Assembly: GCA_023475565.1 (NCBI GenBank)
Contig: JAMCVT010000065.1
Span: 1-33,659, forward strand
Length of the DNA stretch: 33,659 nt
Direction: 5' to 3'
Origin: Actinomycetota bacterium
GTDB taxonomy: Bacteria > Bacillota > Desulfotomaculia > Desulfotomaculales > Desulfocucumaceae
Shown here in pieces: positions 1,131 to 33,012 of this stretch (position 1 is the first letter of the stretch; each line of letters begins with the position of its first letter). Made by a program: the position numbers and the translations under genes. The notes beneath the pieces were generated by a model. It was given only the letters and a program-made list of their open reading frames with translations, had not been told where the DNA came from and ran no database searches.

Positions 1131-2565
1131 GAAACTTGATTTAACAACAGACAGTGATACCCTTTTCAACCGGCTTAAGGACTTGCCCGGCAGTATACTG
1201 CTGGACAGCGGAATGCTGGTGGGCGGGCTGTCCAGGTACTCCTTCATGGCGGCCGACCCGTTCCTGGTGGTGACATCCCGTGGCAATGAGGTTAAAGTGG
1301 AAAAAAGGGCAGGCCCCGGATCCGGTGCAACGGAAATAGTGGCGGGCAACCCTCTGGACGTGCTGGGCGGGCTGATGAAGCTGTACAGAATGGAAGGGGT
1401 CAGCGGGCCGGCGCCTTTTTTCGGGGGTGCGGCGGGTTTTTTTTCCTACGACCTGGGGAGGCTGCTGGAAAAGGTGCCCGACCTGGCCTCTTACGATGTA
1501 TGTACTCCTGACTGCTGGCTGGGCTTTTATGATGTGGTGGCCGCCGTTGACCATGTGGAGGGCGGCGTTTATATAACTTCCACCGGCCTCCCTGAGGAGG
1601 ATGCTGAAAAATCAACTCTGAGAGCCCGGGAAAGGCTGGAGTGGCTGGAAGAAACCATATTAAACGGCTGCGGAGAAAAACCGGTGGCCGGTGGGGAAGA
1701 GCCCGGAGAAGACTGGGACGGAGAGGGTGCGGCGGGAATGTTCTCCGACTTTGACCGGGACAGCTACTGCCGGGTGGTGGAAAGGGCCAGGGAGTACATA
1801 GCCGCCGGAGACATTTTTCAGGTCAACCTGTCCCAGCGTTTTAGACTGCCCAGGAGGGGAGACCCCTGGGAGATATTCAGGCGCGTTAAAAGGATCAACC
1901 CGGCTCCCATGGCCGCCTATATAAACTGCGGCGATCTCAGGGTGGTGAGCGCCTCTCCCGAAAGATTTTTAAAGGTCACCTCCGGAATGGTTGAAACAAG
2001 GCCCATAAAGGGCACCCGCCCCAGGGGGAAGTGCCCGGAGGAAGACAGGCGCATGCGCGAGGCCCTCTGGAACAGTGAAAAGGACAGGGCCGAGCTGGTA
2101 ATGATAGTTGACCTGGAAAGAAACGACCTGGGCAGGGTGTGCGTCCCCGGATCGGTAACCGTCCCGGAGCTATACAGAATAGAGGAGTACCCCACGGTGT
2201 TTCACCTGGTTTCTACTGTGACCGGCAGGCTGGAAGAGGGCAAGGGAGTGGTGGACCTGCTGAAGGCCTCCTTCCCCGGGGGCTCCATCACCGGAGCCCC
2301 CAAAATAAGGGCCATGGAAATTATAGAGGAGCTGGAGCCGGTAAGGCGCGGCATATACTGCGGGTCCATAGGCTATCTTTGCTTCAACGGCGACGCTGAC
2401 CTTAATATAGTGATCAGAACGCTGGTATTTACCGGTGAAAATATACACCTGCAGGTGGGTGGGGGCATAACCATAGACTCAGACCCCCATGCGGAATATG
2501 TTGAAACCCTGGACAAGGCCGGGGCGCTGGTTAGAGCGCTGAGGCTGGAAGGAGTTTTGGACTGA
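1111..2565 (+). CDS. pabB: Aminodeoxychorismate synthase component I
   Basis: It aminates chorismate to 4-amino-4-deoxychorismate using ammonia from PabA. The 484-residue chain has an N-terminal anthranilate synthase I-like domain (about 1-180) and the C-terminal chorismate-binding domain (about 215-480). Family motifs are visible: [51 protein letters not shown] and [17 protein letters not shown]. The start is a GTG inside the end of pabA, preceded by CCGGAGG. The stop overlaps the pabC start in TGATG, so all three genes are translationally coupled. TrpE is the alternative; the PIKGTRPR segment, where a Lys is diagnostic of many PabB enzymes, and the downstream pabC support PabB. Confidence 0.92.
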
Positions 2566-3392
2566 TGGATACCATAAATATTGTCTGCTTAAACGGTGAG
2601 TACCTGGCTGCCGGGGAGGCTGCGGTGCCGGTCGGTGACGAGGGGCTCCTTTACGGAATGGGTCTGTTTGAGACCATCAGGCTATACGGTGGAAGCCCCC
2701 GGCTGGCGGATTTGCATCTTTCCAGGCTGGCAGATTCCGCCGGTCGGCTGGGGCTGGGAATACCCTTCAAACTTCCTGAAATAGAGGAAATGCTGTACCG
2801 TACCGCCGAGAAAAACGGTATTGAGGAGGGTGGACTGCGCCTGACCCTGACCGCCGGCAGCGCCCAGTGCCGCCCCAGCCTTTTGGTGCAGGCCAGGGTA
2901 CAGGCCTACGGGGAGGAAATGTACCGGGACGGCATAAGGGTGGGGTTTGCCCCCTTCAGCCGAAATGAAAAATCTCCCCTGGTGAGACATAAGACCCTAA
3001 ATTATTTTGAAAACATTATGGCCAGGCGGCTGGCGTCTGCTTCCGGCTGGGGAGAGGCGCTTTTTCTGAACAGCGCAGGAAAACTGGCCGAAGGGTCGGT
3101 CAGCAACATTTTCCTGGTAAACCGGGGCCGGGTGATTGCCCCGGATGGCGACTCCGGCCTCCTGCCCGGCATAACCCGCCGGAGGGTGATAAATGTGTGC
3201 GTCACCCTGGAAATACCGCTGGAAGAAAGGGTGGTGGACCCGGAGGAACTATACCGGGCCGACGAATGTTTCGTCACCAACTCTCTAATGGGTGTCATGC
3301 CGGTTATCGCCCTGGAAAGCAGTGCTGTGGGGGACGGTAAGCCAGGGAAGGTAACCCGCCTGTTGTCTTCTGAAATGGAAAAAGAAGTATGA
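2565..3392 (+). CDS. pabC: Aminodeoxychorismate lyase (PLP fold type IV)
   Basis: It splits 4-amino-4-deoxychorismate into p-aminobenzoate and pyruvate, the last step of PABA synthesis. The protein has 275 residues, the usual length for the class IV aminotransferase/lyase family. GLLYGMGLFETIRLYGG near residue 28 is the typical N-terminal motif, and the Schiff-base lysine is Lys143 in VRHKTLNYFEN. LAEGSVSNIFLV and the GLLPGITRRRVI cofactor-phosphate region follow in order. Branched-chain or D-amino-acid aminotransferases share this fold, but the position as last gene of pabAB makes the lyase role much more likely. An inverted repeat just downstream ends the operon. Confidence 0.9.
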   Translation: MDTINIVCLNGEYLAAGEAAVPVGDEGLLYGMGLFETIRLYGGSPRLADLHLSRLADSAGRLGLGIPFKLPEIEEMLYRTAEKNGIEEGGLRLTLTAGSAQCRPSLLVQARVQAYGEEMYRDGIRVGFAPFSRNEKSPLVRHKTLNYFENIMARRLASASGWGEALFLNSAGKLAEGSVSNIFLVNRGRVIAPDGDSGLLPGITRRRVINVCVTLEIPLEERVVDPEELYRADECFVTNSLMGVMPVIALESSAVGDGKPGKVTRLLSSEMEKEV

Positions 3393-4815: not shown

Positions 4816-5799
4816 ATGGACCGGGAGCTTACCCTGGAACTGGTCAGAGTCACCGAGGTGGCGGCGCTGGCGTCTTCGCAGTGGATGGGACGCGGGAAGA
4901 AAAACGAGGCGGACGGCGCTGCTGTCAACGCCATGAGGGCCATGTTCGATACCGTTGCGATAAAGGGCACAGTGGTTATAGGAGAGGGCGAGATGGACGA
5001 GGCGCCCATGCTGTACATAGGAGAAAAGGTGGGCTGTGCCGAGTCCCCCGAGGTGGATGTGGCGGTGGACCCCCTGGAGGGCACCAACATTCTGGCCAAG
5101 GGACTCCCCAATGCCTTGTCGGTGGTGGCCATGGCCGACAAGGGAAATCTTCTGCACGCTCCGGACATGTACATGCAGAAGATAGCGGTGGGACCCAGGG
5201 CGGCCGGTAAAATACACATTGACGACCCGGTGGAAAGAACCCTGGAAATAGTGGCCAGGGTTCAAAATAAGAGGATATCCGACTGTACTGTAATGATTCT
5301 TGACCGGCCCCGCCACAAGAAAATAATAGAGGCGGTCAGGAATGCAGGCGGCAGGGTCAGGCTTATTGGCGACGGCGATGTGGGATCGGCCATTTACACC
5401 GCCATACCCGATACCGGAATCGACCTGTGCGTGGGCATAGGCGGAGCCCCCGAGGGAGTCATAGCGGCGGCCGCCCTTAAGTGTCTGGGTGGAGAGATGC
5501 AGGCCAGGCTGTGGCCGGAGGACGATGCTGAAAGGTCCCGGTGCGCACAGATGGGCATTGCAGACACCAGCAGGATACTTTACATGGATGATATGGTAAA
5601 GGGAGACGCCATATTCGCGGCCACGGGGGTAACCGACGGCGAACTGCTGAAGGGGGTGCGCATGCTGGGCAATGACCTGGCCGAGACCCACTCACTGGTG
5701 ATGCGTTACAAAAATAAAACCGTCAGGTACATAAAGGCCATACACAACCTGGCCTACAAAGCCAACATGGTATTCGGAAGCCCCATTTATTTTGATTGA
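4816..5799 (+). CDS. glpX: Fructose-1,6-bisphosphatase class II
   Basis: It hydrolyses fructose 1,6-bisphosphate to fructose 6-phosphate, the committed step of gluconeogenesis, in the cytoplasm. The 327 residues match the class II (GlpX) family. Metal and phosphate-binding motifs are intact: GEGEMDEAP at 56-64 and [11 protein letters not shown] at 81-91; [20 protein letters not shown] and [20 protein letters not shown] follow. It starts with ATG behind GGGAGTG. A gluconeogenic enzyme fits an anaerobe growing on organic acids or aromatics via acetyl-CoA. A small membrane-protein gene follows behind its own promoter. Confidence 0.93.
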
Positions 5800-21078: not shown

Positions 21079-21693
21079 CTATTCCGCCGGCGCAGGCTCC
21101 AAAGAAGGCGAGGGAAACGCGAACGCTTTAGTTAAAACGAAAGCCGCTTGCAGTGCCTCTGTAGGGCAAAGCGGAAAACACTCTTTGCAGTTCCAGCATT
21201 CATTGGAGGCTATCTCCGGAATGAAGCTTATCTCCCGCTTTGTTCCCCTGTCAACAAATCCAATAGCGTACTTCTTTTTGACCTCAGCACAGTATCTTAC
21301 ACATAACCCACAATGAAGGCAAAATGAGGGCTCTTTTTCAAAACGGTCTTTATCTGCTCCATACTCTTGAGCCAAATCCTGCAACTCAAAGGCATCCGGA
21401 GCATGAGCCAGCAATAGCTCCAAGATCATTTTGCGAATTCTATCTACTTTCTCGGACCTGGTTCTTACGACCAAATTTTTTTCCACCGGGTAAAGGCAGG
21501 AAGCAACGAGTTGTGTCCGGCCGCGAATTTCTGCTTCTACTGTGCAAAGGCGGCAACCCCCATAAGGTTCTAATTTCTCGTGGTGACAAAGTGTCGGAAT
21601 CGATATTCCCGCCTTTTGTGCCGCCTCTAAAACGGTCATCCCTTCCCTTGCTGCGACTTCTCTTCCGTCAATCTTTAAAATAATTTCACTCAT
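21079..21693 (-). CDS. bamI: Benzoyl-CoA reductase complex subunit BamI (NuoG N-terminal-like iron-sulfur protein)
   Basis: A 204-residue electron-transfer subunit resembling only the N-terminal part of NuoG/HydA. The N-terminal plant-type 2Fe-2S site uses Cys36, 47, 50 and 66. Two 4Fe-4S motifs follow: C125-x2-C-x2-C-x3-C135 and C166-x2-C-x2-C-x3-C176. The His-Cys cluster normally between them in NuoG is not evident: around His97 the sequence reads AHAPDAFELQDLAQEYG with no cysteines. Its ATG overlaps the bamH stop (ATGA), so the two are translationally coupled. With BamG and BamH it would form the NAD(H)-reacting module. NuoG-like subunits of NADP-hydrogenases look alike; the bam context decides. 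Confidence 0.85.
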   Translation of the reverse strand: MSEIILKIDGREVAAREGMTVLEAAQKAGISIPTLCHHEKLEPYGGCRLCTVEAEIRGRTQLVASCLYPVEKNLVVRTRSEKVDRIRKMILELLLAHAPDAFELQDLAQEYGADKDRFEKEPSFCLHCGLCVRYCAEVKKKYAIGFVDRGTKREISFIPEIASNECWNCKECFPLCPTEALQAAFVLTKAFAFPSPSLEPAPAE

Positions 21694-23618
21694 TTTTCTT
21701 TGCTCCCTCTGACTATAGTTCTCGCTTCTTCAGGGATAGGAGTTGGAACAGGCTCGCCGGAAATCTTCCTTACCGCACGAAAACGGGGGGGACAAACTTC
21801 GAAGCAAGTTCCGCACTTTGTGCATTTCTCCTGGTCAATTACATGGATCCGGTTCTTACTACCCACAATCGCCTCTGAAGGGCATTTCCTGGCGCAACTC
21901 ATACAGCCCTGGCACTTATCCGGGTCAATATAGAACGCGATCAGCTCCTTGCAGGAAAGAGCCGGGCACCTCTTTTCCTTGATGTGCGCCTCATACTCAT
22001 CTCTAAAGTATTTTAACGTGCTTAGAAATGGGTTGGGGGCACTCTTGCCTAAAGCACAAAGCGCGGCATCACGGGCTACCTCGGCTATCTCCTCCAAAAG
22101 CTCGATGTCGCCCTCTCTTCCCTTTCCTTGGGTGATATTAGTGAGAATCTTAAGCATCTGCCTGATGCCTTCACGGCATGGCACACATTTGCCGCACGAT
22201 TCATCAGTTAGGAAGTTAAGGAAGTACCTGGCGACATCAACCATACAGGTATCTTCATCCAATACAATCATCCCACCTGACCCCATCATTGAACCGGCCT
22301 TGGTGAGTTCATCATAACCAACTTCCAAATCTAACAGTTCTTCAGGGAGACATCCGCCGGACGGTCCCCCGGTCTGCACTGCCTTGAACTTCTTGCCGCC
22401 GGGGATTCCACCGCCGATTTTGTAGATAATGTCTCTCAGGGTTATGCCCATGGGCACTTCCACAAGGCCGGTATTGTTTATCTTACCGACCAGGGAGAAA
22501 ATCTTCGTGCCCTTGCTTTTTTCAGTCCCTAACTGAGTAAACCAGTCAGCGCCATTGTTGATGATAAGCGGCACATTAGACCATGTCTCAACATTATTCA
22601 ACACGGAGGGTCTCTCCCAAAGGCCCTTGATGTTGGAGCGGATATACTTCGGTCTGGGCTCTCCTGCCCTGCCTTCCAATGCCGTCATCAGAGCAGTCGA
22701 TTCACCGCAGACGAAAGCGCCGGCGCCCTGGTGCACTTTAACAATGAAATCATAGCCTGAGCCAAGGATGTTTCTCCCAAGAAGGCCATACTCTAGAGCC
22801 TGTTTGATAGCGATGGTCACATTCTGTACCGCCAGGGGATATTCCTGTCGTACGTAAATATAACCCTCGTGGGATCCGATGGCATAGGCTCCGATAAACA
22901 ACCCCTCAAGAATTGAGTGAGGATTTCCTTCAAGCAGCGCTCTATCCATAAATGCCCCCGGGTCACCCTCATCGGCGTTGACGATCACATATTTTATTGG
23001 GTCAGGTGCATTGCGGGATCCTTCCCACTTACTCCCTGTGGGAAAGCCGGCGCCTCCCCTTCCTCTCAGGTTGGATTTCTTGACTTCCTCCAATACTTGC
23101 TCGGGGGTCATCTGGAAAAGAGCTTTGGCTAATGCGGAATAACCGCCGATCGCCAGATAGTCATCAATGCTCTTGGGATCAATCTTAATATTATTGCAGA
23201 TGTTTATTCGTTTTTGATGCTTATAGAAAGGAATATCGGATTCTCGAGTTGCTTTTTCGCCTGTGGATGGTTCAACATAAAGCAGACGATTTACAACCTT
23301 CTTCTCCTTTAAGGTCTCTGAGACAATCTCGGGAACGTCTTCAGGCTTTACCTGGAGATAGCATATCTCCTCAGGATAAATAACCACAACGGGCCCTCTC
23401 TCGCAAAATCCGGGGCACCCTGTTCCTTTGGTATCCACATCAGTCTTTAAGCCTTGTTTTTCAAGCTCTGCTTTAAAGGCGGCTATGACTTCACCCGCAC
23501 CAGAGGCAAGGCAACCAGCGCCGGCACATACTGAAATGCAGGGCTTTTTGGGGTCTCTCGACGACAGGATGCGCTTTCGGAGTTCTTCCAATTCAGCTGC
23601 TGAATTTATACGCGCCAT
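21690..23618 (-). CDS. bamH: Benzoyl-CoA reductase complex subunit BamH (NuoF-like NADH-binding flavoprotein)
   Basis: A 642-residue NuoF/HndC-type protein. It starts with a thioredoxin-like 2Fe-2S domain (Cys31, 36, 68, 72), followed by the FMN/NADH domain with GRGGAGFPTGSKWEG (186-200), NADEGDPGAFMDR and GAFVCGESTALMTALEG. A C-terminal NuoF 4Fe-4S motif (SCGKCVPCREG) and two ferredoxin-type clusters close the chain (CQGCMSCARKCP, CTKCGTCFEVCP). It is the probable NAD(H)-reacting subunit of the complex. The start is the ATG at 23618 with only a weak TAGGG ribosome site 14 bases after bamG, so coupling to bamG is likely. In isolation it could pass for an NADP-reducing or bifurcating hydrogenase subunit; the flanking bam genes argue otherwise. 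Confidence 0.88.
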   Translation of the reverse strand: MARINSAAELEELRKRILSSRDPKKPCISVCAGAGCLASGAGEVIAAFKAELEKQGLKTDVDTKGTGCPGFCERGPVVVIYPEEICYLQVKPEDVPEIVSETLKEKKVVNRLLYVEPSTGEKATRESDIPFYKHQKRINICNNIKIDPKSIDDYLAIGGYSALAKALFQMTPEQVLEEVKKSNLRGRGGAGFPTGSKWEGSRNAPDPIKYVIVNADEGDPGAFMDRALLEGNPHSILEGLFIGAYAIGSHEGYIYVRQEYPLAVQNVTIAIKQALEYGLLGRNILGSGYDFIVKVHQGAGAFVCGESTALMTALEGRAGEPRPKYIRSNIKGLWERPSVLNNVETWSNVPLIINNGADWFTQLGTEKSKGTKIFSLVGKINNTGLVEVPMGITLRDIIYKIGGGIPGGKKFKAVQTGGPSGGCLPEELLDLEVGYDELTKAGSMMGSGGMIVLDEDTCMVDVARYFLNFLTDESCGKCVPCREGIRQMLKILTNITQGKGREGDIELLEEIAEVARDAALCALGKSAPNPFLSTLKYFRDEYEAHIKEKRCPALSCKELIAFYIDPDKCQGCMSCARKCPSEAIVGSKNRIHVIDQEKCTKCGTCFEVCPPRFRAVRKISGEPVPTPIPEEARTIVRGSKEK

Positions 23619-23632
23619 ACTTTTACCCTACC

Positions 23633-24085
23633 CTATTCATAATTTTTTAAAACTTTTGCCATCTCGGCCGGCGCCATCTTACCGTGAGTCTTCCCGTCGA
23701 TTTCCGCCACCGGTCCTAAAGAACAACAACCGAGGCAGTTAACCGTCTCCAGGCTAAACTTCAAATCCAAATCGGTTTCGCCAGGTTTAATTCCAGTCAG
23801 GTCTTGCACCGTGTCGAGGACACGCTGAGCACCACGGACATGACAGGCAGTGCCCATACAGACATGAACTTTATGACGTCCCTTAGGAACTAAACTAAAG
23901 GCCTTATAGAAGGTAGCTATATGCTGGATCCGGGTTAAAGGAACTTGCAATCTTTCGGCTACCCTCTCTAATGCTTCCTTGGGAAGCCAGTGATTCTCGC
24001 TCTGAATATCCAGTAATACCTGAATTAGCGAACTGGCCTCGCACTCATGTTTATCAATAATCTGATCGACTCTAGCCTTATCCAT
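23633..24085 (-). CDS. bamG: Benzoyl-CoA reductase complex subunit BamG (NuoE-like 2Fe-2S protein)
   Basis: A 150-residue thioredoxin-fold 2Fe-2S protein of the NuoE/HndA family, with all four ligands in place: Cys76 and Cys81 (VCMGTACHVRGA) and Cys117 and Cys121 (NCLGCCSLGPV). The helical N-terminal segment includes the typical HNWLP-like ENHWLPKEALERVAE. It passes electrons between the NuoF-like subunit BamH and the rest of the complex. The gene lies 35 bases after bamF and 14 before bamH on the same strand. Confidence 0.88.
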   Translation of the reverse strand: MDKARVDQIIDKHECEASSLIQVLLDIQSENHWLPKEALERVAERLQVPLTRIQHIATFYKAFSLVPKGRHKVHVCMGTACHVRGAQRVLDTVQDLTGIKPGETDLDLKFSLETVNCLGCCSLGPVAEIDGKTHGKMAPAEMAKVLKNYE

Positions 24086-24120: not shown

Positions 24121-24888
24121 TTACGCGAGAGCATAGCGCTTCCGGTCTACATCGTACCTGACGAATCTTTGCCTTGACAAACTATTAAGGTGCCTTGATA
24201 CTTCAGACGGGGTCAGGTCTAAAGCCTTAGCGATATCTCCGGTTGTAAGGGGTCCTTCCCGCAAGAGCGAGATAATCTGGCCTATTGCCAATTTCTCTGC
24301 AATTGTTTCATCAAACAACCTGTTGAACTCTTCACTGGTGAAAAATTTATGATACTCTTCCTCTGATTTTAAAGGTATTCTCAGTCTCTCCCTTTCCACC
24401 AGCCTAATGTAGGGAACCAGGTTTGTAACTGCTTCAAGTTTGGACTTTAATGCATTTTCGTCTATTCCTTCGCCTTTGCCAAGAGGTCCTAACTCCATCA
24501 CCTTCTTGTCAAAGTCATTCATAACTTCAGCAAAACGGATTCCTTCACCGGCTCCTACCGATTCAAACCTTAACCTTTTGGGGTTCACCCCTATGTGCTC
24601 CATTATTTTTTTACATAATAGGGTCATGCTTAATGCACCAGAATTTCCATTAGTAATGTAATGGCATTCGCCAAGATGACAACCGCCTATAAACACCCCG
24701 TCTGTTCCATTTGAGAAAGCCCGGAGCACAAATGACAGGTCGACTCTGCCGGTGCACATCACCCGTATAAGCTTAGTATTGGTCGCATATTGTTGTCTGG
24801 ACACGCCAGCCAAATCTGCTGCGCCGTACGCTCACCAGTTGCACACAAAACCTAAGATCTTTGGTTTGAATTTAAGCACTGTACTCAT
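24121..24888 (-). CDS. bamF: Benzoyl-CoA reductase complex subunit BamF: MvhD-like selenoprotein with C-terminal winged helix
   Basis: The true start is the ATG at 24888-24886 behind AAAGGAGGTG. Codon 19 is TGA (24834-24832) and must be read as selenocysteine: the N-terminus is MSTVLKFKPKILGFVCNW, then Sec, then AYGAADLAGV. C-N-W-(C/U)-x-Y-x-x-A-D is the conserved MvhD motif, and BamF is known as a selenoprotein in Geobacter. Other ligand cysteines are Cys45, 70 and 75 (GGCHLGEC). The 255-residue protein links the HdrA-like BamE to the NADH module. Residues from about 195 (IISLLREGPLTTGDIAKAL, then DLTPSEVSRHLNSLS) form an ArsR-like winged helix-turn-helix not needed for electron transfer. 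Gene callers that stop at TGA would start it wrongly at TTG 24813. Confidence 0.9.
24803..24834 (-). promoter_or_regulatory. Candidate selenocysteine insertion element (bacterial SECIS) in bamF
   Basis: Starting eight bases after the UGA, GCGCAGC (24824-24818) pairs with GCUG-(G)-CGU (24810-24803) with one bulged G, giving seven pairs around an AGAUUUG loop. A hairpin right downstream of UGA is what bacterial SelB recognises. Pairing was worked out by hand and bacterial SECIS sequence is poorly conserved. Confidence 0.55.
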
Positions 24889-24913
24889 TCTTATTACACC
24901 TCCTTTGTTAATT

Positions 24914-24971: not shown

Positions 24972-27900
24972 TTAAAAAGCGGCGTCAATCTGGCTATAGA
25001 GCTCTTCGTTGTTGTAGTGCTTTAGTGAAATAGCCCCTGTCGGACACTTTGCGTTGCAAAGACCATCTCCTTTACAGAGTACGGGATTAACTACAGCTTT
25101 ATCATGAAACTCTATGGCGCCATACGCACAAACTGTGAGACATGCCCTGCACGAAATACACTTACTCTCATCAACCTCACAAACAGAGCCGGAGGCTACG
25201 ACTGTATCATGTGAGAGAAGCGTTAAGGCCCGGCCGGCAGCCCCATAAGCCTGGCTAACTGTTTCTGATATAAGCTTGGGATAGTGGGCTATCCCACACA
25301 GGTAAACGCCTTCCGCGCCAAAGTCAACGGGTCTTAACTTGACATGGGCTTCCTGGAAGAATTCATCCGGGCTCAAGGATACCTTGAATAATCCGGCTAT
25401 TTCTTTTCTGTCCGCGGAGGGAATAACGGCGGCGGCTAAAACGAGTGCGTCGGCATCTATTTCAAGCTTGCTCCCTAGAATATAATCGGTCACGGTAACC
25501 TTTAAGACGGGCCGGCCTTCATCGGACTCACCGGGTTCCACCTCGGGTTTAGCATCGGGCTCGTAGCGGATGAACCTGATATCTTTACTTGCTGCTTTCC
25601 GGTAATAATCTTCTTTGAACCCATAGGTTCTGATATCCCGGAAGAGAATATAGATGTCCATGTCGGGGTTTATTTCTTTTAGTTTCAAGGCGTTCTTTAT
25701 GGACTCGCTGCAACAGATCCGGCTGCAGTAGTTTCTGTCTTCATTTCTGCAGCCTACGCATTGGATTATCACCAGGCTCTGGGAGTTAATGAGCTTTTCT
25801 TCTCCTTTGGCGATTTGCTCCTCCAACTCCAGGTGGGTCATTACGCGATCGTCTTCTCCATAAAGGTATTCGGTGGGTTTATATACTTCAGCGCCGGTAG
25901 CGATGACGGCGGCTCCGTGTTTTATTTCTGTGATTCCTCGCTCAGACTTCACTTTGGTTACGAAGTTACCAACATAGCCGCCGGCCTCTATGAAGGTGGC
26001 ATTGGTATATACATGGATTAAGGGATGCTGATAGACCTTGCGTGTAAGATCACGCAGATATGCCTGAACATCCAGCCCTTCCAGGGTGTAATGGATTTTT
26101 CGGGCGATTCCACCCAGGTCGGTATCCTTTTCCACCAGGTGAACTTCATGTCCCTGCTCGGCTATGGAGAGTGCGCTGGTCATGCCGGCCACGCCTCCTC
26201 CGACCACCAGCGCGGCCTTGCTGACGGGCAGGTCAAATTCCTGCAAGGGTTCTAAACGGCGAGCACGGGCAACGGCCATCCGGATTATTTCTTTTGTTTT
26301 TTGGGTGGCCTCTTCCTTTTCTTTGGAGTGGACCCAGGAGCAGTGTTCTCTAATATTAGCAAAGTCGAAATAATATTGGTTGATTCCTGCTTCCCGAAGG
26401 GTATCGCGGAATAGCGGTTCGTGTGTTCTGGGGGTGCAGGCGGCGACAACCACGCGATTGAGCCCCTTTTCCTGGATCGAGTTTGATATATGCTTTGCAG
26501 CGTCGGTAGAACATATGAAAAGGTTGTCTTCAGCGTGAACAACATTGGGTAAGGTCTTGGCATATTCAACTGCGGAAGGAACATTTACCACTCTTCCGAT
26601 ATTAGCTCCACAATGACACACATAGACACCCACCCTGGGCTCCTCTTGCGAGACATCTTTTTCAGTCGGAAATATTCTTTCTTTGGCCAGCTTCCCACGC
26701 CGGAAGTCAAGGAGTTGACCACATTGGGAGCTGGCCCCGCTGGCGGTCACAACCGACTCGGGGATATCCAGGGGACCCTGGAAGGCTCCGCTTATAAAGA
26801 TTCCCGGACGGGAGGTCTCCATGGGATTAACGGGATTGGTTTTACAGAATCCGTGGGAATTGAGCTCGATGCCGAACTTGTTAGCCAGGCCATTAAAGTC
26901 AGCAGGAGGGTTCAATCCGACGGATAGTACTACCATATCGAATTCTTCCTCTTTTACTCCATCGTCGGGGGTAGAATACCGTATGGTTACATTTTTGCTT
27001 TCCGGGATCTCTTTTCCTATTGATGTGTAGCTTCTTATAAATCGAACCCCGGGAAGTTTCTCTGTTCTTTGGTAGAATCGCTCGAAATCCTTGCCATAGG
27101 AACGAATATCGTTATGGAATATGGTACACTCGGCCTCGGCGTCATGGTCTTTGGTCAAAATCACCTGTTTCTGGGCATACGTGCAGCATACGGCTGAACA
27201 ATAGCTGTTGCCGCCGGGGATAACCTGTCTGGAACCGACGCACTGAATCCAGGCTACTTTATGTGGATGCTTCTTGTCGGTAGCGCGCAGTATCTCACCT
27301 TCGTATGGCCCGGTGGAGCATAATAGCCGTTCGTAGTCAAGACTGGTTACCACGTTCTCAAACTTTCCGTAGCCATAGTCCTCCCTCAACTTGGGATCAA
27401 AGGGCTCAAAGCCGGGAGAAAGAACTATCGCCCCTACTTTTACTTCTACCTTCTCTGCCTTTTGGTTGAAATCTATGGCGTCAGTCTTGCAGACTCCCTG
27501 GCAAATGGTGCATGTCTTATCTTTGAGGTAACGGCAACTTTCATCTATATAAGTGACAAGGGGAGTCGCTTGAGAAAAGTAAATATGGATGGCTTTATTA
27601 TCCGATATCTCTTGATTAAATTTATCAGGGTACTTGACCGGGCAGTATTCTACACAGACTGTACAGCCCGTGCATTTGCTCTCATCAATATATCTGGGCT
27701 TTTTAATCAGGGTTACCTTAAAGTCTCCTGTTTCCCCTTCTATACTGTCAACTTCTGTATAGGTCATGATCTCTATGTTGGGATGCCTGTTGCATTCGGT
27801 AAACTTTGGCGATTCAATGCACATGGAGCAGTCATTGGTGGGAAAGGTCTTGTCAAGCTGAGCCATGTGGCCGCCAATACTCGGCGCTTTTTCAACCAGG

Positions 27901-28043
27901 TAAACTTTAAATCCCGCGGTGGCAAGATCAAGGGCGGCTTGTATACCGCTGATCCCTCCGCCGACAACCATTACGTCTCCAAAATTACTGCCTGCAAGAC
28001 TTTTAACAAGCTGTCCTTCAATTCTTTCCAGTTCTTTTTCCAT
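24972..28043 (-). CDS. bamE: Benzoyl-CoA reductase complex subunit BamE (double HdrA-like flavoprotein)
   Basis: At 1023 residues it is about twice a simple FAD module. The first half has VVGGGISGIQAALDLATAG (27-45), the HdrA-type cysteines of NDCSMCIESPKFTEC (72, 75, 84) and a ferredoxin motif (CTGCTVCVEYCP). A second FAD domain near residue 620 has VVGGGVAGMTSALSIAEQG and is followed by another HdrA-like cysteine region (CVGCRNEDRNYCSRICC). The C-terminus carries a two-cluster ferredoxin (CISCRACLTVCAYG, CKGDGLCNAKCP). HdrA carries the bifurcating FAD in heterodisulfide reductases; by analogy BamE is the proposed site of flavin-based bifurcation that drives endergonic ring reduction. Related HdrA-like proteins occur in sulfate reducers, but size and neighbours fit BamE. 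Confidence 0.88.
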   Translation of the reverse strand: MEKELERIEGQLVKSLAGSNFGDVMVVGGGISGIQAALDLATAGFKVYLVEKAPSIGGHMAQLDKTFPTNDCSMCIESPKFTECNRHPNIEIMTYTEVDSIEGETGDFKVTLIKKPRYIDESKCTGCTVCVEYCPVKYPDKFNQEISDNKAIHIYFSQATPLVTYIDESCRYLKDKTCTICQGVCKTDAIDFNQKAEKVEVKVGAIVLSPGFEPFDPKLREDYGYGKFENVVTSLDYERLLCSTGPYEGEILRATDKKHPHKVAWIQCVGSRQVIPGGNSYCSAVCCTYAQKQVILTKDHDAEAECTIFHNDIRSYGKDFERFYQRTEKLPGVRFIRSYTSIGKEIPESKNVTIRYSTPDDGVKEEEFDMVVLSVGLNPPADFNGLANKFGIELNSHGFCKTNPVNPMETSRPGIFISGAFQGPLDIPESVVTASGASSQCGQLLDFRRGKLAKERIFPTEKDVSQEEPRVGVYVCHCGANIGRVVNVPSAVEYAKTLPNVVHAEDNLFICSTDAAKHISNSIQEKGLNRVVVAACTPRTHEPLFRDTLREAGINQYYFDFANIREHCSWVHSKEKEEATQKTKEIIRMAVARARRLEPLQEFDLPVSKAALVVGGGVAGMTSALSIAEQGHEVHLVEKDTDLGGIARKIHYTLEGLDVQAYLRDLTRKVYQHPLIHVYTNATFIEAGGYVGNFVTKVKSERGITEIKHGAAVIATGAEVYKPTEYLYGEDDRVMTHLELEEQIAKGEEKLINSQSLVIIQCVGCRNEDRNYCSRICCSESIKNALKLKEINPDMDIYILFRDIRTYGFKEDYYRKAASKDIRFIRYEPDAKPEVEPGESDEGRPVLKVTVTDYILGSKLEIDADALVLAAAVIPSADRKEIAGLFKVSLSPDEFFQEAHVKLRPVDFGAEGVYLCGIAHYPKLISETVSQAYGAAGRALTLLSHDTVVASGSVCEVDESKCISCRACLTVCAYGAIEFHDKAVVNPVLCKGDGLCNAKCPTGAISLKHYNNEELYSQIDAAF

Positions 28044-28170: not shown

Positions 28171-28968
28171 TTAATTTGTTGAGCAGCCAAGTCGCTCCGG
28201 GTGGGAATACACCAGCAGCCGGCCTCCTCGCGCATGGCCGACCAGGGTAATGCCCAGATCACGGGCAAGCAAAACTGCGCTCCCTGTCGGCGAGTGCCGC
28301 GAAACAACAACCTGGACCTGCATCTTTGCCGCCTTGAGCAACATCTCCGACGAAACGCGACCGGTAGTCAGCAGCAGTCGATCTCTGGTTGCTAGTCCCC
28401 TCAACAGACATTCGCCCTGGATCTTGTCCAAAGTGTTATGCCGTCCGATATCCTCAGCCACTACCAGCAGGTTCCCGGTATCGGACAGAGCTGAAGTGTG
28501 CACGCCGCCACTAAAACGGTACAGATCCATCTTCTCTTGAAGCTGCTTCAGCAGTGACAGCACTTCCGCCGGTGCGGCAACCAGACCCGAATCAACCGTT
28601 CGTCCCTGCGTTTTGAAAGTCGCGCCGCCGCCGCACCCGGAGGTGAGTGTCCGTTTTGTCGGCAATTTATACTCGGGGTTTTTGAGCCTCACATCGGCCA
28701 GCGATTCGTCCTCACACATCCGCATCATCACCACGTCGCCGGTGTCTGAGATGATTCCCTCTGAGTACAGGAATCCGAGAACAAGGAAATTCAGCTTGGT
28801 TGCAGTGCACAGGATGGTGACCAGTTCTTGCTGATTCACATAGATTGTAAGCTCCATCTCGTCAGGCACGTGAACCGAGGTCCTGACCCATCCCTCGTCG
28901 GAAAAGCGATCGCATACTATCTCCGCTGCCGCACTTTTCATATCCGATACTCCAATCGCTTCTCGCAT
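28171..28968 (-). CDS. fdhD: FdhD-type sulfurtransferase for molybdenum/tungsten cofactor
   Basis: FdhD carries sulfur from a cysteine desulfurase to the Mo/W-bis-pyranopterin cofactor and is known as essential for active formate dehydrogenase. The 265-residue chain has the family pattern: VPDEMELTIYVNQQELVTILCT, LVLGFLYSEGII, then the sulfur-carrier loop TSGCGGGATF with a single Cys112 (as in many non-enteric homologues), FSGGVHTSAL, AEDIGRHNTLDKI, TTGRVSSEML and SRHSPTGSAVLLA. AAAGGAGC precedes the ATG. No formate dehydrogenase is in the window. The gene sits inside the bam operon, between bamD and bamE, so it may sulfurate the tungsten cofactor of BamB; this is inference from position only. 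Confidence 0.93.
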   Translation of the reverse strand: MREAIGVSDMKSAAAEIVCDRFSDEGWVRTSVHVPDEMELTIYVNQQELVTILCTATKLNFLVLGFLYSEGIISDTGDVVMMRMCEDESLADVRLKNPEYKLPTKRTLTSGCGGGATFKTQGRTVDSGLVAAPAEVLSLLKQLQEKMDLYRFSGGVHTSALSDTGNLLVVAEDIGRHNTLDKIQGECLLRGLATRDRLLLTTGRVSSEMLLKAAKMQVQVVVSRHSPTGSAVLLARDLGITLVGHARGGRLLVYSHPERLGCSTN

Positions 28969-29120: not shown

Positions 29121-30272
29121 TTAGAGCACTTCCTGGAGGATCTCCGTGATGTCCTTAACCTGTATGACGTCATCATAATTCAGTACTACCTTGCTATCCT
29201 CAAAATTAATGATGCAATAGGGGCAGGCAGTAACCAGTTCTTCAGCCCCAAGCCCAACAGCCTCTTTCAGCCTGAGGTTGGAGAATCTTTCGGACTTTGG
29301 AGTTTCAGCCCAAATCCTGCCTCCCCCCATTCCACAACAGAGACTTTCTTCCCGCGACTCGGCCAGCTCAATTAGTTCCAAGCCGGGTATCTTTTTCAGG
29401 ACTTCTCGCGGTTCGTCATATATACCATTATGCCGGCCCAGGTAACATGGGTCATGATACACAACTTTCTTCCCATACTCCTTGCTGATCTGAAGCCTTC
29501 CCTCATTAATCAACTGGAATAAATACTGGGTGATATGGACTATCTCAAAGTTCACCATGAATTCAGGATACTCGTTCTTGAAGGTGTGGTAACAATGAGG
29601 GGATGAAACAAGGATTTTCTTTACCCCGTTTTCGATAAAAGCTTTGATGTTTTCCCTGGCCAGTTGCTTGAATAATTCCTCATTGCCTGTCTTGCGGATG
29701 CTTTCTCCACAGCAATTCTCCTCGGCGCCCAGGATCCCGAAATCTACTCCTGTCTTATTGAGGATCTTGGCCGTGGCGGCGGCTACCTTCTTTAATCTTG
29801 GGTCATAGCTTAAGTAACAGCCGGGGAAATATAAAATTTCCATCCCTTCTTCGAAGGTTTTTACAGAGAGTCCCTTTGCCCAATCCGCCCTCTTTGCCCG
29901 TTCTTCACCGAAGGGGTTGCCATCTCCGGCAAGGCCTGCGCTTGCGGTGCGGACAGGCTTGACAGCGGCTGGGAAAACACCATATCCCGTGGCCATCCTG
30001 CGCAGGGCTATCATGTTTGTTATCTGCTTTACATCCCTTGGGCATCTCTGGGCACACTTTCCGCAGGTGGTACAGCGCCAGATCTCTTCATTTTCTATCT
30101 CAGTCAAGCCAAATGCAGCCTGCCGGATCAGTTTGCGCATACTGAAAGTCCTAACTTTGTTCCAGGGGCATACAGTATCGCATTTCCCGCATTGATAGCA
30201 GAATTTGACTGCCTCTCCACCGCTCTCTTTTATTTCCTCTATTACCTCTTTGATGGGGGCTTCAATCTCCAT
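29121..30272 (-). CDS. bamD: Benzoyl-CoA reductase complex subunit BamD (HdrD-like)
   Basis: A 383-residue protein with an N-terminal two-cluster ferredoxin (C25-x2-C-x2-C-x3-C35 and C67-x2-C-x2-C-x3-C77) and two C-terminal CCG domains. The first has FPGCYLSYDPR and EENCCGESIRKTG, the second HDPCYLGRHNGIYDEPRE and SLCCGMGGGRIW. CCG domains bind the unusual noncubane 4Fe-4S centres in heterodisulfide reductase HdrB/D. Here the protein is expected to carry electrons between BamE and the BamBC active-site unit. GlcF/LarA-type Fe-S oxidoreductases have the same layout, so the assignment leans on its place directly after bamC. Confidence 0.88.
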   Translation of the reverse strand: MEIEAPIKEVIEEIKESGGEAVKFCYQCGKCDTVCPWNKVRTFSMRKLIRQAAFGLTEIENEEIWRCTTCGKCAQRCPRDVKQITNMIALRRMATGYGVFPAAVKPVRTASAGLAGDGNPFGEERAKRADWAKGLSVKTFEEGMEILYFPGCYLSYDPRLKKVAAATAKILNKTGVDFGILGAEENCCGESIRKTGNEELFKQLARENIKAFIENGVKKILVSSPHCYHTFKNEYPEFMVNFEIVHITQYLFQLINEGRLQISKEYGKKVVYHDPCYLGRHNGIYDEPREVLKKIPGLELIELAESREESLCCGMGGGRIWAETPKSERFSNLRLKEAVGLGAEELVTACPYCIINFEDSKVVLNYDDVIQVKDITEILQEVL

Positions 30273-30355: not shown

Positions 30356-30982
30356 TTAGCCCCTCTTTGACATGCGGGCAACTGCATCCACCAGCTTCTG
30401 TAGGCCATATTTGTCTACCAATGATTTCAAGCCTATCTTCATATCGCCCAGCTTCGCTTCTTCTTCGACTTCTTCTTCGCTTTCTTCGCAAGTCAGGGCA
30501 TTAACCATGCACCATTGAACGCACAAGGGCTCTTCTTGGTCTTCGCACATATCGCATTTGAGCGGAAGACCGGAATCGGGTTCTTTGAAAATATCTCTGG
30601 ATGGGCAGGACACGCCACAAAAAGTACATTCCCCATATTTAGTATCACTCTGTTCATATGCACCTTTCTTAGCGGCTGCATCCCACTTCTCATATGCATT
30701 TTTATCAGCGACTGCCTCCCACTGACTTTCATTCAAGCCTCCAGCACTATTCTTTGCATATACATTCCTACCAGCACATTCGGCGTTGGTATAACCACTG
30801 GATATAACTGGAACGAAGATATTATCCAACTCACGTCTAACTACCCGGATTCGAGACCTTGCTGGATTGATAACGCTATATTTCGGACTGGAGTGAGATG
30901 CGGAACAGATCATCTCACATCTCCGACAACCATTACACTTGTCAATATTAATCTTTATTACTTTCTTTTTTTTCTTTACCAT
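30356..30982 (-). CDS. bamC: Benzoyl-CoA reductase subunit BamC (polyferredoxin)
   Basis: A 208-residue iron-sulfur protein that binds BamB and feeds electrons to the tungsten site. Cysteine groups at 16-26 (CNGCRRCEMIC), 119-126 (CTFCGVSC) and 143-165 (CDMCEDQEEPLCVQWC plus a later Cys) fit three 4Fe-4S clusters. The N-terminus is lysine-rich (MVKKKKKVIK). Between the first and second groups it has two adjacent 12-residue repeats, QWEAVADKNAYE and KWDAAAKKGAYE (87-110), encoded by a 36-bp tandem duplication. An acidic stretch (EESEEEVEEEA) precedes the helical C-terminus. It follows bamB by 59 bases with GAGAGGAGTG before the ATG. Confidence 0.88.
   Translation of the reverse strand: MVKKKKKVIKINIDKCNGCRRCEMICSASHSSPKYSVINPARSRIRVVRRELDNIFVPVISSGYTNAECAGRNVYAKNSAGGLNESQWEAVADKNAYEKWDAAAKKGAYEQSDTKYGECTFCGVSCPSRDIFKEPDSGLPLKCDMCEDQEEPLCVQWCMVNALTCEESEEEVEEEAKLGDMKIGLKSLVDKYGLQKLVDAVARMSKRG
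30653..30724 (-). repeat. 36-bp tandem duplication inside bamC
   Basis: Two adjacent 36-base units, related but diverged, each beginning TCATATGCA on the plus strand; they encode the two 12-residue repeats of BamC and keep the frame. Confidence 0.75.
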
Positions 30983-31041: not shown

Positions 31042-33012
31042 TCATTCTTCTTTTAGAATTCCCCTCTTGACAAAGTCCTCATATACGTAATCCAAGCCCA
31101 GTTCATATAAAGACGCTTTCGTAGGAATACCCTGCTTGTCCCAACCCTTATATTCGAAATACCCTTCTAGGAGCTGGGCTTCATACTCGGGAAACCTTTT
31201 CTTCCAATGGTCTTCCGGGGGACGTTCGTCCTCTATAGTTAATCCTCTTCTAATATTGAAAGCCCTGACTAAATTTCGTACTCTCTTGGCTATCAGCCAT
31301 AATCCATCTTCATCGACATCCATTCCGGTCGCATATGAGATGAAAAGAGGGAAATTGTGTATGTGATAGGGAGGTTTATAATGAAAGCCGGACACACCAC
31401 TGCAGATTCCGGTGGTATTGTCAATGTAGCGGATCATCTCCGACCAATCACAAAGTTCACTAGCTAGATCAATAGGTGGCCAGTAGGGCGCCTTAGCATG
31501 TGGTTCTCCCCCCTCAAGAACAAATTGCTTGAACCTTTCTTCCTTTCCAGTGGGAATCTGAATCCAATCCTTTATAAACTCTTCCTGATGTTCCTTATTA
31601 AAAATAGGCGCCTGGGGCACTTGCCCTTCAATTTGAGGGATACAGGTCTTCTCGTCGGTACTGAACCATAAGAAGTAAATTGGGTCCACCTTCCCTAACT
31701 TAATACCTATCTGCAAATGCTTTCTTATGGTGTTATGCTCATAGGCCTCTGCCCCGTTACCAATTTGTCGGGCCGCACTGTAGATACCGTTGGCCAGAAT
31801 ATCACCGATCCCTTCGCGTCTTACGATCCTATCAAGCAGCCAGGAAAACCTCTCTTTTGCATCTGAGGGCATACCTTCCAAGTCCTTATCTGTTAGAATG
31901 CCCGCCTCATAAAGTTCGATAGCAAAGGCTATGGTTTGCGGCATTCCGTATGCATCCACCCCGTATTCCAAAGCACGGCCCGCTATGTCAAGATTCCAGT
32001 CAATATCTTCTATCATGGCTCCCCATGTCCAAATCATTTTCATTGAACATTTCATTGGGATGGTCCGGGATCCTGGCATCTCAACTAGCGCCCCACACTC
32101 AAGCGGGCAATTATAACAACTGGACATACGCTTAATTCGCCTCGTCAAAGTTAGTATAAAGTGTGCTGCGTATTCTTTCGTCCAGAAGCCTTTTCGTCGA
32201 TGACGGGCATTTCCCCAGGCGAAATTGTTAAAATGCCAACTTTCATCTGGCCAGTTCATCGGCCATGGTCCTAACAGCCCAAACCAGGGCGGCTCTATAC
32301 CCTTGATTGGATTTCTCATCCGATGTTCTACATACTTGTTAACTTCATCGCACAGGCCTAAAAATTCAGCCGGTCGGTCAATATAGATGTCCTTTGTACC
32401 CCGCACAGCTATTGCCTTCAACTTTTTGTCTCCCATGATGGCGCCCAAACCCAACCGGGCGGCACTTCCCCTACCAGCCTCGATGGAAGCCATATAGACC
32501 CTGTTTTCACCGGCCAGACCGATACAAGCCACCTCGGCTTTCGGTTCCTTCAACTCCTCTTGAATAAGTTCCATAGTTTCATAGGTGCTTTTACCCAGTA
32601 AATGAGACGCATCGCGTATTTCTACTTTGCCATTGTTTATCCACAAATAAACCCACTCAGATGATTTCCCGCGAATGATTATCCTGTCATAGCCGGCGTG
32701 CTTTAATTCTGTTGCCCAAAAACCACCCATCATTGAAAATCCCATTAAATCGGTCTCAGGAGAAATTGCGGCAATAACGGCGCGCGTGGCGGTAGGGGCT
32801 GGTGTGCCGACTAAGAGACCGGTGTCAAATATCAACAGATTATCGGGAGAAAAAGGTTCAACTTCAGGAGGAACTCTATCCCATAGTATCTTCGCGGCAG
32901 TACCAAGACCTCCCAGATAAAGTTCCGTTAATTTCGGGTCAGATTCTACCCTCTCAACGTTTCCTCGGGATAAATCAATTTCTAAATTATACCCTGCCTC
33001 TGAGCACCTCAT
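31042..33012 (-). CDS. bamB: Class II benzoyl-CoA reductase catalytic subunit BamB (tungstopterin, AOR family)
   Basis: The subunit that reduces benzoyl-CoA (or an analogue) to a cyclic dienoyl-CoA at a W-bis-pyranopterin without ATP. Its 656 residues match BamB length and pattern: NLEIDLSRGNVERV, ELYLGGLGTAAKILWDRVPP, GFSMMGGFW, AGENRVYMASIEAGRGSAAR and GAIMGDKKLKAIAVRGTKD. The 4Fe-4S ligands are C299-x2-C302-x3-C306 (SCYNCPLECG) and Cys in TTGICSG. PDESWH (Glu257, His260) matches the region that lines the BamB pocket. The region FNNFAWGNARHRR departs from the Geobacter sequence as I remember it, so substrate may differ. Ribosome site TAGGAGG, ATG at 33012. Other AOR-family oxidases are less likely given bamC-I downstream. 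Confidence 0.9.
   Translation of the reverse strand: MRCSEAGYNLEIDLSRGNVERVESDPKLTELYLGGLGTAAKILWDRVPPEVEPFSPDNLLIFDTGLLVGTPAPTATRAVIAAISPETDLMGFSMMGGFWATELKHAGYDRIIIRGKSSEWVYLWINNGKVEIRDASHLLGKSTYETMELIQEELKEPKAEVACIGLAGENRVYMASIEAGRGSAARLGLGAIMGDKKLKAIAVRGTKDIYIDRPAEFLGLCDEVNKYVEHRMRNPIKGIEPPWFGLLGPWPMNWPDESWHFNNFAWGNARHRRKGFWTKEYAAHFILTLTRRIKRMSSCYNCPLECGALVEMPGSRTIPMKCSMKMIWTWGAMIEDIDWNLDIAGRALEYGVDAYGMPQTIAFAIELYEAGILTDKDLEGMPSDAKERFSWLLDRIVRREGIGDILANGIYSAARQIGNGAEAYEHNTIRKHLQIGIKLGKVDPIYFLWFSTDEKTCIPQIEGQVPQAPIFNKEHQEEFIKDWIQIPTGKEERFKQFVLEGGEPHAKAPYWPPIDLASELCDWSEMIRYIDNTTGICSGVSGFHYKPPYHIHNFPLFISYATGMDVDEDGLWLIAKRVRNLVRAFNIRRGLTIEDERPPEDHWKKRFPEYEAQLLEGYFEYKGWDKQGIPTKASLYELGLDYVYEDFVKRGILKEE

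Follow-up and report, generated by a model that had tools for sequence, protein, structure and literature searches.

A selenocysteine form of BamF in a class II benzoyl-CoA reductase gene cluster, with a candidate SECIS core conserved downstream of its UGA codon

Results

The bam cluster and its neighbourhood

The window (the whole stretch of 33,659 nt that was analysed) carries an intact bamBCD-fdhD-EFGHI cluster on the minus strand, and bamF (24121..24888) lies within it. The product of bamB (31042..33012) matches Geobacter BamB over its whole length (4z3w_A, residues 1-654, E 2.5e-253), and that of bamC (30356..30982), an electron-transfer subunit, matches Geobacter BamC (4z3w_E, E 5.5e-54). 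These are followed by bamD (29121..30272), encoding an HdrC/HdrD-like iron-sulfur protein with CCG domains, by fdhD (28171..28968), encoding a sulfurtransferase for the maturation of Mo/W enzymes (TIGR00129, 168.9 bits, over the cut-off), and by bamE (24972..28043), whose HdrA-like product of 1023 aa scores 955 bits against the HdrA2 model and which is directly upstream of bamF. Beyond bamF come bamG (23633..24085; NuoE-like, [2Fe-2S]), bamH (21690..23618; NuoF-like, NADH/FMN) and bamI (21079..21693; like the NuoG N-terminus, Fer2/Fer4). With the bamB-I cluster and the BamB and BamC orthologues in place, the gene is the BamF of a class II benzoyl-CoA reductase system, and a BamE homologue also stands just 5' of bamF in every selenocysteine (Sec)-type bamF locus long enough to tell.

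Two features of the neighbouring genes may be recorded here. The gene fdhD is likewise found between bamD and bamE in Desulfosporosinus (L020, L022, L024) and in a Desulfobacterales bacterium (L028), and just before bamE in Chloroflexota (L041, L045), a position that suggests a role in sulfuration of the BamB cofactor. Relative to Geobacter BamC (4z3w_E), BamC has about 35 extra residues inserted where its two ferredoxin halves meet (residues 76-114).

The bamF gene and its in-frame TGA

The bamF frame starts at an ATG (24888-24886), ends with a TAA at 24121 and is interrupted at codon 19 by an in-frame TGA (24832..24834). Read with TGA as U, it yields a protein of 255 aa, MSTVLKFKPKILGFVCNW-U-AYGAADLAGVSR..., with the motif C16-N-W-U19-A-Y-G-A-A-D, and our minus-strand translation thus reproduces the MvhD motif that an initial annotation of this DNA had restored across the TGA. 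The strong ribosome-binding site that it had placed at this ATG is borne out by a Shine-Dalgarno sequence, AAAGGAGGTG (24897..24906, minus strand), 8 nt before the start, with a duplex energy of -16.0 kcal/mol. A mechanical ORF call opens instead at TTG 24813 and gives 230 rather than 255 aa, the loss of 25 residues that had been foreseen.

The protein comprises an FlpD/MvhD domain (residues 11-134; PF02662, 157.5 bits against a cut-off of 22.3) and a C-terminal ArsR-type winged helix (about 204-245; HTH_5, 47.5 bits), and the predicted model (pLDDT 87.5) has the MvhD fold, matching 5odh_D and 8rvu_F. The TGA sits at the second Cys of a CxxC motif and is Cys in homologues, which places the protein in the CxxU family. 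Cys or Sec is invariant at five positions (16, 19, 45, 70 and 75), two of which, C16 and U19, are missing from the truncated call, so that, judged from sequence, the loss of a cluster ligand is plausible. As a [2Fe-2S] cluster takes four ligands, one of the five is surplus, and Sec19 could therefore either bind the cluster or act as a redox residue beside it.

A second type of Sec bamF, found at L118, L119, L120, L032-L037 and L039-L045, has no winged helix, and its downstream part matches the C-terminal ferredoxin region of BamH.

Alternation of selenocysteine and cysteine

When homologues are aligned at residue 19, taking the best match per locus, codon 19 in 105 homologous loci is TGA in 48, TGC in 34 and TGT in 23, with no other codon. 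Such a restriction in 105 of 105 loci is the product of neither sequencing error nor chance. Across the whole family, two invariant Cys columns account for almost all in-frame TGAs, with 78 at codon 19 and 29 at codon 70, and every Sec of the BamF clade occupies position 19. A search of a plasmid collection returned a single distant match.

The wider family shows further variation. Most Sec-containing MvhD relatives (L062-L064, L066-L078 and others) carry Sec in column 70 (GG-U-HLG), not 19; the C19/U70 pattern occurs in 26 matches, and selenium thus switches, within the family, from one invariant cysteine column to another. Two small MvhD-type proteins, at L068 near 11888 and L083 near 6039, appear to have in-frame TGAs in place of Cys19 as well as Cys70, which would give each of them two selenocysteines. 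Residue 20 of BamF is Ala, Val or Gly in 68 of 68 Sec19 matches and Cys in 26 of 26 Cys19 matches (U-A versus C-C), a split that may stem partly from phylogeny. At L102 near 1300 and L114 near 2783 (reverse strand), decayed-looking fragments of Sec-type bamF with the TGA lie near intact Cys-type bamF genes, as if the Cys copy had taken over from the Sec copy.

A conserved hairpin 22 nt past the UGA

What RNA element accompanies the UGA? A 13-nt apical hairpin, CUGG(CGUGU)CCAG, with G-U in its loop, spans UGA+22 to UGA+34 (24797..24809, minus strand). All 60 distinct Sec-bamF sequences, a minority of which were retrieved with a search pattern that prescribed part of the stretch, its final AG excepted, read CUGG(AGUUU)CCAG or CUGG(CGUGU)CCAG at this place; as 13-mers there are just two forms, CTGGAGTTTCCAG (n=49) and CTGGCGTGTCCAG (n=11, window copy included), versus 18 variants of the same stretch in 29 Cys BamF-like sequences. 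Among the first 41 Sec sequences, which were collected without any pattern selection, the four CUGG/CCAG pairs are kept in 41 of 41, compared with 2 of 14 Cys BamF-like sequences and 7 of 61 of all Cys sequences (Fisher 1e-21 for 41/41 versus 7/61, on this set that predates the pattern search and with phylogeny ignored). The Arg31 codon is AGR in 60/60 Sec but in 5/29 Cys sequences.

Within 13 genomes that hold both kinds of gene, the stem is kept in 20 of 20 Sec copies and in none of 19 Cys copies. Two synonymous substitutions, A to C and T to G, separate the loop forms and preserve a pairing, A-U or C-G, around the G-U; neither of the intermediate loops, A-GU-G and C-GU-U, occurs among the 60 distinct Sec sequences, and the protein tree needs about 8 changes of form, at least 3 of them forced by well-supported branches. 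A synonymous switch made this often and without intermediates shows that selection acts on the RNA itself, apart from the protein. The phylogenetic weakness of the Fisher test is only partly remedied by comparing copies within genomes and by counting loop switches, because the Cys-BamF forms arose from few events.

The hairpin satisfies the bacterial SECIS model (PMC13188914 Fig. 2), which calls for an apical loop of 3-9 nt on a stem of at least 4 bp, with a G in loop positions 1-2 and the loop 16-37 nt after the UGA: here the stem has 4 bp and the loop 5 nt, with G second and 26 nt past the UGA. Energetically it is weak on its own, at -2.3 to -4.4 kcal/mol, and the 42 nt that follow the UGA in the window have another fold as their energy minimum; an energy test on these 42 nt gave no SECIS signal, the window's fold not being unusual, and raw folding energies are alike in Sec and Cys sequences. 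RNAalifold on 45 nt recovers the 4-bp core only. A lower-stem extension (UUG/CAA) can be drawn in the window but is not kept across the set, and we therefore make no claim for it.

The initial annotation had taken a different element as the signal, a 7-bp hairpin beginning about 8 nt after the UGA (UGA+7 to UGA+28; 24803..24824, minus strand). In favour of this as the SECIS of a genuine Sec19 codon, in place of the hairpin at UGA+22, a similar fold has the lowest energy for the first 36 nt after the UGA in the window. Of 41 Sec homologues, however, just 1 retains all seven pairs of this hairpin; it can be drawn, with six pairs, one bulge and a G.U, but its -9.5 kcal/mol gives it no stability beyond that of synonymous recodings of the peptide (mean -12.0 kcal/mol, 79% of them as low). 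The two hairpins overlap and are mutually exclusive. We rejected it as a SECIS on these grounds, and regard this variant of selenocysteine decoding as very improbable.

Other readings of the TGA

If the TGA were a true stop, bamF would be a pseudogene or would encode only the 230-aa protein starting at TTG 24813, where the mechanical ORF indeed begins. That form is without the invariant C16 and position 19, whereas the upstream ATG at 24888 has its strong Shine-Dalgarno sequence and codons 1-18 are conserved as protein. Differences in the bases 5' of the TGA number 2.98, 2.28 and 6.64 per pair at codon positions 1, 2 and 3; this concentration in third positions indicates that the upstream part is translated, and termination at codon 19 seems a shade less probable still than the displaced hairpin.

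A sequencing or assembly error that turned TGC or TGT into TGA in an ordinary Cys bamF is scarcely credible, even in a draft of 175 contigs: it is refuted by the TGA that homologues share at the same codon, in dozens of independent genomes from several phyla, and the window copy carries both the hairpin and the AGR codon of Sec genes. Reassignment of TGA in this organism (for example to Trp, code 4) can be dismissed, since TGA is an ordinary stop in the window, ending the genes at 1111-2565, 2565-3392 and 4816-5799 as well as bamH and bamB, and homologues have Cys, not Trp, codons at position 19.

Selenocysteine machinery in the genome

The window is part of contig C96 in a 2.72 Mb draft genome (99.2% complete), in which selA, selB, selC and selD were all found and which thus has the genes for Sec decoding. 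The tRNA-Sec scores 69.3 bits and is called tRNA-SeC with anticodon tca by ARAGORN; selA (614 bits) adjoins selB on contig C148, and selD (397 bits) also contains an in-frame TGA. Across the class, selA scores above the cut-off in 107 of 113 genomes. The selD gene, which lies outside the window at G000:C37:3290-4210, has a single such TGA, which makes it a second candidate selenoprotein, likewise of a type already known.

Discussion

The decoding machinery, the alternation of Sec and Cys, the coding-like substitutions upstream and an RNA element confined to TGA genes agree with the initial proposal that bamF encodes a selenoprotein. Sequence comparison supports bamF as a Sec gene, and from this we infer that Sec is actually inserted in this organism. 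We hold with high confidence that bamF encodes the selenocysteine form of an MvhD-like electron-transfer subunit of a class II benzoyl-CoA reductase, with UGA19 decoded by way of a SECIS at UGA+22.

How might such a protein work? SelB and Sec-tRNA would decode UGA codon 19, aided by a SECIS with the 13-nt CUGG(CGUGU)CCAG, 22 nt past the UGA, as its conserved core, to which SelB would presumably bind. Sec19 would replace the second cysteine of the family's CxxC, in a domain whose MvhD counterpart holds a [2Fe-2S] cluster. MvhD binds such a cluster and supplies HdrA's bifurcating flavin with electrons (PMC12350162, PMC6019823); by homology, BamF would pass electrons to BamE, the HdrA counterpart, and Sec19 may take part in that transfer. 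The benzoyl-CoA reductase that it serves is predicted from the genes to be a tungsten enzyme of class II (ATP-independent).

On balance we also favour the view that the bamF clade has a SECIS core of its own, a nearly invariant 13 nt distinct from the core of Sec MvhD genes, in which the A..U or C..G flanks of the G-U switch together across lineages. If so, the loop would be closed by a base pair, as an N-G-U-N' tetraloop, and the Gly-Val-Ser-Arg codons would be fixed by SelB recognition. A TGA with CTGG-N-GT-N-TCCAG 22 nt downstream provides a simple, checkable signature of Sec-type bamF, which makes a metagenome search for selenium-dependent aromatic-ring reduction straightforward. BamF is also a case in which automatic gene calls drop a genuine part of a selenoprotein, here 25 residues that include the CxxU motif.

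Class II benzoyl-CoA reductases were reportedly described as W/Se-containing by Loeffler in 2011 and Huwiler in 2019. The Sec-containing FlpD/FrhD/MvhD/VhuD family (PF02662, motif CxxU) is established (PMC1794560 Tables 1 and 3, PMC13188914 Table 1), and Sec FrhD has been known since at least 2006, with 19 bacterial selenoproteins, one of them in Geobacter metallireducens (PMC1794560). The window's BamF shares with these the domain and the Sec at the second CxxC position, but adds a C-terminal winged helix and stands in a bam cluster instead of among hydrogenase or Hdr neighbours. The BamF of G. metallireducens, Gmet_2083, is tabulated as 'hydrogenase, delta subunit; HTH' (PMC1924859), and this architecture and the bamB-I order are common to both organisms, whereas the window has fdhD between bamD and bamE. 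Judged by its relatives, the bacterium that carries the window, presumably an anaerobic degrader of aromatics, is probably a Firmicute of the Desulfotomaculum type. Sec MvhD genes with SECIS have been predicted in Desulfococcus multivorans and Desulfobacterium autotrophicum (PMC5109826, PMC2702500); in D. multivorans, too, a bam subunit contains Sec, but it is named BamE there, whereas in the window it is bamF that carries the Sec codon, and bamE is free of in-frame TGAs. The MvhD chains of the Hdr-Mvh, Elp-Hdr and Fdh-Hdr complexes (5odc, 8rvu, 7bkb) have the same FlpD fold with one [2Fe-2S] cluster and 47-49% identity in the domain, but the aligned chains have Cys at the Sec position and no HTH domain. 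Selenocysteine in the FlpD/MvhD/FrhD family is therefore already published, G. metallireducens and sulfate reducers included, and the new information on Sec bamF is the precise SECIS core and the covariation of its loop.
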